Assembly: GCA_016934395.1 (NCBI GenBank)
Contig: JAFGSZ010000099.1
Coordinates: 1 to 64,000, forward strand
Reading direction: 5' to 3'
DNA: 64,000 nt
DNA from: Bacteroidales bacterium
Lineage (GTDB): Bacteria > Bacteroidota > Bacteroidia > Bacteroidales > UBA10428
Below, in pieces: positions 15,771-18,706 of this stretch. The notes beneath the pieces were generated by a model. The model made no database searches. It was not told the origin of the DNA and worked only from the letters and a program-made list of their open reading frames with translations. Made by a program: the position numbers and the translations under genes. Position 1 is the stretch's first letter, and each line of letters starts with the position of its first letter.

Positions 15771-15845
15771 GGTCCCGTCAGGGACAGGATATCGGTAGCT
15801 AAATGTTTATTCGGATTTAATACGTGCCGTTAGGTACGTGATAAT
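15771..15845 (+). repeat. REP-like unit A (left arm of the transposase unit)
   Basis: The palindrome at 15772-15785, GGTAGC at about 15794-15799 and the palindrome at 15822-15839 form a 75-base unit. It is closely similar to the solo unit at 16912-16987. The second palindrome encodes the last residues of the transposase. Confidence 0.8.
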
Positions 15846-16308
15846 CAATATCTACTGGTTTAAAAACAAAACGGTCATCGTATTCAATGTCGAATTCTTT
15901 TAATAGATCAAGATATTCCTTTATAAAGGTTTTTATTGTATGATGTTCTTTTTGATTTTGGATATACCTGATTATATTTTCTAAGTCGGATTTGGCATAT
16001 GAAAAAGCAGCGTACCCTTCCTGCCAAGAGAATTTGCCACGAATAAAACCCTTATCATTAATCCATTTTGATGAGTTTCCTTTAATATCCTGCATCAGAT
16101 CTGATAATGATTGTGTCGGTCTGAATCCAAAAAGCATATGAATTTGGTCCGGCATACCATTGATAGCTAACAATTTGTGGTTGTTGTTTTGCACTATTCC
16201 GGTGATATATTTATACAATTCGTCTTTCCAGAAATTAAGAATGATTGATTTTCGGTCCCTGACTTCAAAGACTGCCTGGATATGAATCTGGGTGTAGGTG
16301 TTTGCCAT
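15817..16308 (-). CDS. Y1 (IS200/RAYT-type) transposase, HUH motif changed to Q-I-H
   Basis: A 163-residue protein of the single-domain Y1 transposase family. It starts MANTYTQIHIQAVF and has the middle segment PTQSLSDLMQDIKGNSSKWIN followed by FSWQEGYAAFSYAKSDL and IIRYIQNQKEHH. The nicking Tyr should lie in the last helix. The metal-binding HUH motif, normally D-H-x-H here, reads PDQIHML, so the first His is Gln (codon CAA, one base from His). The protein may therefore be inactive or depend on another copy. ATG 16308 is chosen because the 15 codons upstream run through the right-arm palindrome. The C-terminus (HVPNGTY) is encoded by the left-arm palindrome. Confidence 0.85.
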   Translation of the reverse strand: MANTYTQIHIQAVFEVRDRKSIILNFWKDELYKYITGIVQNNNHKLLAINGMPDQIHMLFGFRPTQSLSDLMQDIKGNSSKWINDKGFIRGKFSWQEGYAAFSYAKSDLENIIRYIQNQKEHHTIKTFIKEYLDLLKEFDIEYDDRFVFKPVDIDYHVPNGTY

Positions 16309-16324
16309 AACATTTGTTTTATTT

Positions 16325-16391
16325 CGTCCCTGACAGGACGATTGTTTATTCATATTATTTTGCTACCAATATAAAGTCCCTAAAAGGACTT
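16325..16391 (-). repeat. REP-like unit C (right arm of the transposase unit)
   Basis: The palindromes at 16325-16340 and 16374-16391 flank an AT-rich spacer with GCTACC. It shares the 17-base string TATTTTGCTACCAATAT with the reverse complement of the solo unit at 16912-16987. This places it in opposite orientation to units A and B. Confidence 0.75.
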
Positions 16392-16911: not shown

Positions 16912-16987
16912 CTGTCCCGTAAGGGACAGCATATTGGTAGCAAAATATTTTTGCGGATCTAATACGTGCCGTCAGGTACGTGATAAT
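16912..16987 (+). repeat. solo REP-like unit B
   Basis: CTGTCCC-gtaa-GGGACAG, then TTGGTAGC, then ACGTGCC-gtca-GGTACGT and GATAAT. It aligns along its whole length with unit A and stops matching right outside both ends. No transposase gene accompanies it. It lies just beyond the stop codon of the ArnT-like gene. Confidence 0.8.
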
Positions 16988-17002: not shown

Positions 17003-18706
17003 TTAAAATTCCTGAGGTTTTAATTTAAACAGCACATACCCTTCACAATCCCCCTTACATAATGGAGTTTTGGCAAATATTTCCACGGATTTACCTTCCA
17101 CGTATTCCACCGTTGAAATATAATAAAAATCCGGACCAGGTTTGGGTTTGTATTTCATTATAGAATTCTTCGAAAGGCTAAGATAAAAAGGGACCTGGTA
17201 AGGCAACAACGGAACAAAATCTATATCTACCCTTTTATGTGAAAGGATTATACCTGCATATTTAAGACCAACATTTTTTGTTAAAATATCACCCGTAAGA
17301 TATACAGGTTCTTCTTTGGTAATGTTCTTCACTTCATCAATAAAATTGCGGAAAGCAAAATACCGGGCCTGAAAATCGGGATAATAAAAGGTATTCATAT
17401 ATACACGGGTAATTACCAGTAAAAATAGTACGATATATATTTTCGGACTGTTCTTAATAAAATAATATAAGCTGGCAGGAATTGATATAATTAGAAATAT
17501 TATCAGCAGCAGGAACTTGTTCGGGATATCTACAGCAAATTGAATAAAAAACGAAACAATAAATACAATCGGGATTAATACGCAGATTATTCCAAATAAA
17601 ATAAAGATAATTTTAGTCAGATTATTTCTGCTTTCAATATTTTTGTTGTAAAGCAAAGCTATAACAGTAAACAGAAATGGGATAAACATGTAAAGGTACC
17701 GGAGCCGTACTTCAGGATTTATCCAGTAAATGGGAATATTTAGAATAAAAAACCAGAAGGTAAACCGGACATAAATATTTTCAGTATACACTTTTTTCAG
17801 GAACTTAAAATCGAAGAATAATAAAAACACACACCAGGGTAATAAAATCCTTAACAAAACAACCGGAAAAGTTGCAGTGGAAATAATAATCGAAAGGAGT
17901 GTTCCTCTATCAGCCGTTTTTTCAGCAGCCTCATCAAACAGTTTGTACAAATAGGGCAGGGGATCTTCATGTTGGGAATACACATAAAAATACAGTCCAA
18001 CCAAGGCTATCATTATACCCAGGCTTATAAAATGCCTCCAGTTAAGCAACAATAAGGGTTTTTTAATAACTATTATTAAAGCTACCAGGGTAAATGCCTG
18101 AAATGCCAGAGAAGGTATTCCTTTTGTCAGGATACCTGCTGCCGTTAGCAGATAGGAAATAAAAAACATTAAGAAATATTTTTTATTGGTGCCAAAATGA
18201 AAAATGGTCAGTGCCTGGGCAAAAACCAGTAAAGAATAAAACAGGTCAATTTCACCACTGTAGACACTTCCGTAATAAAATAGCTCGAAACATGTATAAA
18301 AGAACAATGTTGAAAACAGGGCAACTTTTTTGCCTAAATACTTTTTAACAACAACAAAATTCAATAACCCGATTAGCAAAAAACTGATAACAGAAGGTAT
18401 TCGAACGGTCCAGTTATCGAAAGAGTGAAATATTTTCGAGAAAAAAATGATAAGCCAGTTAAACAGCGGGGGTTTGTTATAGTAATTAAATCCATGAATT
18501 GTAGGAACCACATAATTTTTGTTCATTATCATTTCGAGGGCCACAATTCCCCTTCGGGGTTCTTCTCCCCGAAGAACAATCGAATTTAAACTACCACCTA
18601 ATGCAAAAAGGTATAATCCGCCAACTAGTACTAAAAACAAGGTTAATACCAGCGGTTTATTTTTAACAATCCGATTAAGGAATTCCATAAAATACTTTAA
18701 AAACAA
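17003..18706 (-). CDS. ArnT-like (GT83/PMT-type) glycosyltransferase
   Basis: A 567-residue inner-membrane protein with about 12 membrane segments. The family signature is in the first periplasmic loop: RGEEPRRGIVALEM (acidic pair near residue 48, the probable metal/catalytic site) and NYYNKPPLFNWL. Such enzymes transfer a sugar from a polyprenyl-phosphate donor to lipid A, protein or glycan on the outer face of the inner membrane. In E. coli ArnT the sugar is 4-amino-arabinose; here it cannot be named. The gene is downstream of the sugar-nucleotide cluster, but a terminator at 18721-18746 separates them. It is a little longer than E. coli ArnT in total and has a short soluble C-terminal part. 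Confidence 0.85.
   Translation of the reverse strand: MFLKYFMEFLNRIVKNKPLVLTLFLVLVGGLYLFALGGSLNSIVLRGEEPRRGIVALEMIMNKNYVVPTIHGFNYYNKPPLFNWLIIFFSKIFHSFDNWTVRIPSVISFLLIGLLNFVVVKKYLGKKVALFSTLFFYTCFELFYYGSVYSGEIDLFYSLLVFAQALTIFHFGTNKKYFLMFFISYLLTAAGILTKGIPSLAFQAFTLVALIIVIKKPLLLLNWRHFISLGIMIALVGLYFYVYSQHEDPLPYLYKLFDEAAEKTADRGTLLSIIISTATFPVVLLRILLPWCVFLLFFDFKFLKKVYTENIYVRFTFWFFILNIPIYWINPEVRLRYLYMFIPFLFTVIALLYNKNIESRNNLTKIIFILFGIICVLIPIVFIVSFFIQFAVDIPNKFLLLIIFLIISIPASLYYFIKNSPKIYIVLFLLVITRVYMNTFYYPDFQARYFAFRNFIDEVKNITKEEPVYLTGDILTKNVGLKYAGIILSHKRVDIDFVPLLPYQVPFYLSLSKNSIMKYKPKPGPDFYYISTVEYVEGKSVEIFAKTPLCKGDCEGYVLFKLKPQEF

Follow-up and report, generated by a model that had tools for sequence, protein, structure and literature searches.

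A transposase gene between two mirror-image arms

The window, by which we mean the whole 64,000-nucleotide stretch of DNA analyzed here, contains at positions 15772-16389 a minus-strand transposase gene, tnpA, lying between two mirror-image arms (Table 1). Direct reading confirmed the coordinates of this arrangement, which a previous sequence-only reading had described as a mirrored-arm transposase unit with a GTAG-type box between two hairpins. Read on its own strand, each unit consists of a hairpin (P1), 8 nt, the box GGTAG, 22-23 nt (21-22 nt when counted after the C of GGTAGC), and a second hairpin (P2). GGTAGC had been reported as conserved in all three units of the region and as sitting between hairpins, and we indeed read it there at 15794, at 16367-16362 on the minus strand, and at 16936. 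The left arm and the solo third unit are 86% identical across 80 nt, and in a longer alignment of the two, the clear similarity stops, by eye, at the unit edges. A relaxed form of the unit (hairpin, 8 nt, GGTAG, 15 to 35 nt, hairpin, with at most one mismatch per stem) had six occurrences in the 64-kb window, among them the three units described here; 100 first-order Markov randomizations of the window gave a mean of 1.03 and a maximum of 3.

Table 1. Features of the tnpA locus and the neighboring solo unit
Feature	Position	Strand	Basis or remark
tnpA, Y1 (HUH) transposase, subclass 1.2 type	15817..16308	-	Pfam, NCBIfam, alignment motifs
Left arm, outer hairpin P1, GTCCC-GTCA-GGGAC	15772..15785	+	Direct reading
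Left arm, box GGTAGC (member of the N[G/A]TAG class), separated from P1 by 8 nt	15794..15799	+	
Left arm, inner hairpin P2, ACGTGCC-GTTA-GGTACGT, one G.T pair	15822..15839	+	Overlaps last tnpA codons
Right arm, outer hairpin P1, minus-strand sequence GTCCT-N4-GGGAC, one T.G pair	16376..16389	-	
Right arm, box GGTAGC, separated from P1 by 8 nt	16362..16367	-	
Right arm, inner hairpin P2, with 16 nt between it and the tnpA start	16325..16340	-	
Third unit, solo: P1 16914-16927, GGTAGC 16936-16941, P2 16964-16981	16914..16981	+	

The gene likely starts at 16308 with MANTYTQ, matching its relatives, and from there encodes a protein of 163 aa; the stop of the ORF lies at 15817. The inner palindrome of the left arm had been said to encode the C-terminus of the transposase, and P2 does encode its last residues, YHVPNGTY. 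These residues nevertheless look like a read-through extension and the coding overlap appears incidental: among nine loci compared, the stop codon precedes P2 in four relatives (L050, L126, L159, and L170), the C-terminal extension being shared with L027. Across 53 loci, the first perfect hairpin lay 3-8 nt past the stop in 24 and ahead of the computed stop in seven. A conserved role for P2 in coding the C-terminus was rejected on these comparisons.

The enzyme is of the subclass 1.2 type

The ORF, searched in its longer 178-aa form, matched the Pfam Y1_Tnp family with 92.5 bits. With the NCBIfam models, the window TnpA scored 68.5 bits for IS200/IS605, above the cut-off of 55, and 34.7 bits for RAYT, below the cut-off of 80. 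Its nearest solved sequences are transposases, among them 2fyx and 2xm3 (E about 1e-5), the latter presumably the ISDra2 TnpA, and its nearest named relatives are mostly from Bacteroidetes.

In the available sections of the published classification (PMC6006769), the motif Y---NP denotes RAYTs (class 2) and Y---Q--HH denotes TnpA_Y1 subclass 1.2, which was described from Cyanobacteria and Bacteroidetes and counts among its criteria a characteristic domain of about 30 aa at the C-terminus. The Y motif of the window TnpA is YIQNQKEHH, that is, Y---Q--HH instead of Y---NP; together with the low RAYT score, this overturned the earlier description of the enzyme as RAYT-like.

An alignment of 136 proteins, the window TnpA among them, revealed the family motifs D-H-u-H, WQ, and Y---Q--HH. 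Within the Y motif, Y was conserved in 136 proteins, Q in 135, the first H in 134, and the second H in 136, figures that are partly preselected because some of the aligned proteins were collected with a pattern spanning YIQNQKEH. The WQ motif is also present (W in 135 and Q in 130 of the 136), so that the window protein resembles subclass 1.2 in its Y---Q--HH, its WQ, its short length, and its low copy number. Its HUH motif, however, reads DQIH rather than the DH[IV]H of the subclass: the first HUH His is H in 134 of the 136 proteins, Gln only in the window copy, and Tyr in one other. DH[IV]H is kept by the family and lost in the window copy; L053 (Flavobacterium daejeonense) and L061 (Mongoliibacter ruber), for instance, have an uninterrupted frame with this motif. 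Because the first HUH His is replaced by Gln, the window TnpA is probably inactive, a decayed copy.

A second copy of the window tnpA was absent from its own genome, and with it the near-identical multiple copies by which IS200/IS605 elements are recognized. The genome has three further Y1 genes, which share only 33-41% identity with tnpA and lie on contigs other than those of the locus and of the gene-free units described below.

A rigid spacing and a box that varies between lineages

We measured the distance from hairpin to box, between 0 and 20 nt, over all boxes rather than once per locus. Near the genes, [GT]GTAG (292 boxes) followed a hairpin at 8 nt in 73 cases and at 7 nt in 21, with no other distance exceeding six cases; similarly, TATAG (273 boxes) followed at 8 nt in 63 cases and at 7 nt in 33, other distances accounting for at most five. 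The 7-8 nt peak was absent for the control boxes CTAC, GATG, GATC, and GAAG. At 500-1000 nt from the genes, the peaks were lower ([GT]GTAG: 17 at 8 nt among 322 boxes; TATAG: 18 at 8 nt and 14 at 7 nt among 194 boxes), as expected if arrays reach that far. Since [GT]GTAG and TATAG both peak at 7-8 nt, the GGTAGC of the window was assigned to a class N[G/A]TAG, of which it is one member, ATAG occurring in other lineages. Past the box, 76 P1-box units had 52 further hairpin starts at 22-27 nt and 13 elsewhere in the range 0-49 nt. Two other distances were frequent near the genes among the control boxes: CTAC 3 nt after a hairpin (18 cases), perhaps the second face of the array, and GAAG 12 nt after a hairpin (16 cases).

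We then examined 86 boxes picked as ATATNGGTAG, a selection that does not require a hairpin. A perfect 5-bp stem with a 4-nt loop stood at the fixed distance in 48 of them. Stem pair 4 was Watson-Crick in 64 of the 86 (GC in 42 and AT in 22), versus 37.5 expected from the columns, and stem pair 5 in 46 versus 25.2 expected, although part of these loci had been fetched with the core stem TCCC/GGGA fixed. In a separate alignment of 26 units, 99.6% of the stem cells were paired; most of these units had been prefiltered for paired stems, and the value is not independent evidence. Judged from the aligned boxes, P1 stems covary and the spacing between P1 and box is rigid.

The base before TAG, G or A, required nine changes on a tree of 99 proteins, 75 of them labeled, versus a mean of 25.1 and a minimum of 18 in 500 shuffles of the box base. 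In these sequences, the box base follows the enzyme phylogeny, a pattern that joint inheritance of gene and arms would equally give. The 4-mer before the box, taken per locus, tracks the enzyme tree weakly (47 changes; mean 54.0 and minimum 50 in 300 shuffles). The sequences trailing P1 and P2 of the same unit agreed at 4.49 of 9 positions, and those of different loci at 3.58 of 9 (67 loci). Over the pooled units, neither a conserved tetranucleotide nor conserved positions were found 5' of P1 or P2, so that the guide rule known from IS608 cannot be seen in them, a result with which a lineage-specific guide remains compatible.

The unit accompanies close relatives of the enzyme

Relatives L048-L127 (the best 80 of 84) were collected by searching with peptide patterns taken from the window protein, YIQNQKEH among them, and further loci (L208-L226 and L228-L247) were hand-picked from the upper part of the list of TnpA-positive genomes, with intact frames preferred. 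For the family count, a unit was defined as a 5-bp stem with a loop of 3-5 nt followed 8-10 nt on by [GA]TAG. This count excluded the window locus, loci whose flanks were short, and those fetched for their units (L188-L207 and L227).

A unit lay within 200 nt of the gene, on either side, in 68 of the 90 relatives with at least 45% identity, and 22 had none by the definition used. The idea that the arms recur beside other copies of the transposase was thereby borne out. At a distance of 700-900 nt, 8 of 138 windows contained a unit, the near count covering two windows per locus and the far count single windows. A like-for-like count, with two windows per locus both near and far and similar proteins collapsed, gave 55 of 75 near versus 6 of 54 far. 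At the same 90 loci, five scrambled boxes were found in 3 to 14 cases, and two wrong spacings in 9 and 12. Overall, the hairpin-box unit is a conserved neighbor of the subclass 1.2 enzyme in most of the close relatives examined.

The signal fades with distance from the window protein. Between 40% and 45% identity, 5 of 13 loci had the unit, compared with as many as 4 of 13 for scrambled boxes and with 1 of 24 distant windows; below 40% identity, 13 of 36 had it, compared with as many as 9 of 36 for scrambled boxes and with 0 of 65 distant windows. Below 45% identity, the unit signal is therefore not clear of the scrambled controls, and the exact unit is not established for distant relatives. 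A motif-free comparison of the flanks detected inverted arms in 19 of the 36 loci below 40% identity. As a separate observation, four distant transposase relatives, L101, L103, L109, and L094 (Planctomycetales, Parachlamydiales, Chlamydiae, and Terriglobia), have long inverted arms (scores 110-217) composed of several palindromes.

Among the 90 close relatives, units upstream of the gene were on the plus strand in 36 cases and on the minus strand in 10, and downstream units were on the minus strand in 39 and on the plus strand in 18. The mirrored orientation around the gene is a preference. Mirrored units on both sides occurred at 18 of the 90 loci, with 15.6 expected from independent occurrences of the 36 and the 39, so this count is close to a chance coincidence of the two sides. 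In the motif-free test, which included the loci fetched for their units and the window locus, 49 of 141 loci scored higher for inverted similarity between their flanks than 99% of 1500 cross-locus pairs, versus 0 of 108 far inverted window pairs; direct similarity passed in 37 of the 141, palindromes yielding both orientations.

Units without the gene

The sequence-only reading had proposed collecting copies of the unit across its own genome. We searched with a covariance model built from 26 units, the three of the window included, and scored 150 of 2674 first-look candidates. Eight units had E<1e-4, a low copy number: three at the tnpA locus, three on contig C127, and one each on C150 and C66, so that five lie away from tnpA at three gene-free places. 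The places on C127 and C66 have about 190 nt of clear similarity, by eye, inside a longer weak alignment, and when the entire locus was aligned locally with the gene-free copies, the alignments were long and of low specificity.

When 395 genomes of the class were searched, the strict pattern TCCCN4GGGAN9GGTAG occurred 112 times in 45 of them, and its backward control 25 times in 20. TnpA (E<=1e-30) was present in 29 of the 45 pattern-positive genomes versus 109 of the 350 others (Fisher p 2e-5). Against a link between unit and enzyme, this strict, window-type unit was missing from 109 of the 138 TnpA-positive genomes, and 46 of the 112 matches fell in TnpA-negative genomes. One genome, G388 (loci L188-L195), which has no TnpA at E<=1e-30, accounts for 29 of these 46, the most units in any of the 395. 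Its units form inverted modules of the order P1-box-P2-box'-P1', and several of the modules have an additional short hairpin outside P1.

Two other genomes, G048 and G187, contain tandem repeats of units. The form GAGGTCNNATGTTTATAG, taken from L057, L059, and L061, matched in six of nine genomes searched, with up to 17 copies, and in one genome the matches were spread across six contigs. Gene-less units occur singly, as inverted pairs, and as tandem arrays. One stretch of the L061 genome (G419, C20:33405-35620) is a dense array resembling a small satellite, with 14 strict matches and six steps of exactly 149 bp.

Comparison with known single-strand systems

In the available text of Quentin et al. 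2018 (PMC6006769), subclass 1.2 is listed with REP 'no' and as generally devoid of IS200-type terminal structures. Our family differs from this description in the unit that accompanies most close relatives, and the window copy differs further by its missing first HUH His. We read the units as a correction of the published description and not as grounds for excluding the family from the subclass. In most of the close relatives examined, an enzyme of a subclass said to lack REPs and IS ends adjoins a conserved site of exact geometry, which becomes a candidate for the missing substrate.

The IS200/IS605 elements (IS608 and ISDra2; subclass 1.1) share with the window locus an HUH/Y1 enzyme with Y---Q and hairpins on both sides. 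According to the parts of PMC5934647 and PMC6006769 that were available, the IS608 TnpA binds a one-strand hairpin at each end. It cuts at a short site in the left flank and, on the other side, at the terminal bases of the right end; a guide located 5' of the hairpin selects the cleavage site through base pairing. The likeness extends to the short box, which follows one hairpin on its 3' side and precedes the other on its 5' side, an arrangement like that of right and left ends (PMC5934647, available part). The window family differs in that its arms tend to be mirrored, the gene of the window has no second copy in its genome, and there are gene-less units; no 5' guide was found over the pooled units.

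With the RAYT/TnpA_REP systems (REPs, BIMEs, and REPINs; class 2), the locus shares a palindrome-flanked gene of low copy number, inverted pairs, and dispersed gene-less copies. In RAYT REPs, GTAG lies at the 5' foot of the hairpin, and a guide role was shown for one enzyme (PMC8266576, available part). A parallel with this guide had been drawn from the GTAG in the window, and the box position contradicts it: there is no GT[AG]G at a hairpin 5' foot, the box lies 7-8 nt 3' of P1 and mostly 22-27 nt 5' of P2, and it reads ATAG elsewhere. Two hairpins per box and a different enzyme class set the family further apart; two pattern searches gave at most 29 strict matches per genome. Because the box, read 5' to 3', follows one hairpin and precedes the next, it sits at an IS200/IS605-type cleavage position and not at the position of a REP guide.

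TIRtrons likewise combine a Y1 transposase (TIRYT) with inverted flanks, some of them self-complementary, as described in the available part of Di Nocera et al. 2013 (PMC3733652); the window arms, in contrast, lack GGGGWSAS, and their enzyme is of class 1. The CGTC-tagged REPs of Di Nocera, also reported in Bacteroidetes, were set aside as different, having CGTC at the foot and stems of 8-9 bp. RepRanger counts REPs in three Bacteroidota genomes, its available text containing neither the word RAYT nor a stated transposase link (PMC12306157), and none of four group names was found in the available text of PMC2817692. No description of the hairpin-box-hairpin unit was found in our searches of the open-licence PMC literature.

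A candidate substrate with a putative cleavage box

We consider it likely that the locus is a decayed subclass 1.2 Y1 (HUH) element with its cognate REP-like sites, each a junction-type unit with a putative cleavage box. The best reading of the unit is that of a candidate REP-like substrate of the subclass 1.2 TnpA, with two hairpins framing a probable cleavage box. Since the order of the unit equals an IS608-type right end joined to a left end, we infer that the box is the cleavage or target site and that TnpA binds P1 and P2. On this model, P1 and P2 would fold when the strand becomes single during replication, TnpA would bind both hairpins, and it would cut and rejoin at the TAG box. P1 with its box 8 nt on would act like an IS200/IS605 right end, and the box with P2 25 nt on like a left end; the trailing 8-mer is a candidate for what governs the choice of box. 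A segment between two boxes on the same strand could then be excised and inserted, by which gene-less units would spread and arrays lengthen or shorten. In the genome of the window, this system is probably inactive now, because the cognate enzyme lacks one metal-binding His.

An alternative is a plain IS200/IS605 insertion sequence of 1142 nt, mobile on the plus strand, with the box at 15794 and P2 as its left end, P1 at 16914 and the box at 16936 as its right end, and the right arm incidental. On the plus strand, the third unit indeed repeats the left arm directly, in the layout of such an element, and the window TnpA passes the IS200/IS605 model. We nonetheless hold this reading unlikely, as arms near the gene are preferentially mirrored in the family in the counts given above, the own genome contains only distant Y1 genes besides tnpA, and tnpA keeps one conserved neighborhood in five related loci (see below).

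The hairpins could instead be RNA or transcription features of tnpA and its neighbors, such as terminators or 3' UTR hairpins, rather than transposase substrates. The frequent hairpin 3-8 nt past the stop codon would suit such a role. Units nevertheless occur on both sides of the gene, at a fixed box spacing, in tandem arrays, and at three gene-free places in the own genome, and by reading there is no T-run directly after P1 or P2 in the window; seven consecutive T do occur on the minus strand, roughly a dozen nt past P1 of the third unit. The Rfam search of the window stretch returned two hits, both below their gathering scores. This explanation is very improbable. A search of 20 loci against Rfam found only a Flavo-1 RNA near one subclass 1.2 locus (L053:4556-4633, minus strand), apparently unrelated. 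Finally, a true RAYT/REPtron with an unusual REP is scarcely credible: the REPtron-like layout, the low copy number of the gene, its persistence at one locus in several genera, and the GTAG inside the unit speak for it, and the failed RAYT model, the absent Y---NP, the position of the box away from the hairpin 5' foot, and ATAG in other lineages speak against it.

Within the reading as a subclass 1.2 element with REP-like sites, the unit is an intermediate between IS200/IS605 ends and REPs, and it bears on how REP systems arise from insertion sequences. The units may also explain some of the short palindromic arrays in Bacteroidota genomes. A bolder proposal, which we offer tentatively and regard as somewhat doubtful, is that of a third Y1 single-strand system besides IS200/IS605 and RAYT/REP, built from junction units with shared ends, one box serving as an element's right end and also as the left end of its successor. 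If this were true, any box-to-box stretch would be mobile, from a 50-nt single-hairpin monomer up to a gene-bearing segment. Excision would restore a complete unit, and tandem arrays and REPIN-like modules would grow and shrink by one rule.

Turnover of units beside a stable gene

Five loci, L057, L059, L061, L069, and L117, come from Belliella, Cyclobacterium, Mongoliibacter, Lunatimonas, and Algoriphagus, genera that we take to form part of the family Cyclobacteriaceae. They align from the region upstream of tnpA through the gene itself over 1.7-3.2 kb at 75-92% identity, and in four of the five, synteny resumes downstream, with the array in between. Counted by eye, the complete composite modules of the array number one in L117 but several in each of L057, L059, L061, and L069. 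Similarly, the same-genus pair L178 and L184 is 92-95% identical in its surroundings, and the units of its upstream arrays differ in number and order. These comparisons of sequence show units gained, lost, or shuffled beside a stable tnpA, changes for which TnpA is one candidate agent; recombination or slippage could also change arrays. An empty-site comparison through the neighboring gene of the window (17003-18706) yielded two matches (E<=1e-60) in 22 other genomes of the family, both 34% identical.

A Dyadobacter pair, L058 and L062, contains a different short repeat downstream of tnpA, around CATCGCTACGCGATT, which differs in copy number between the two loci and is not associated with a TAG box. 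The indel in this pair falls in this different repeat and was set aside.
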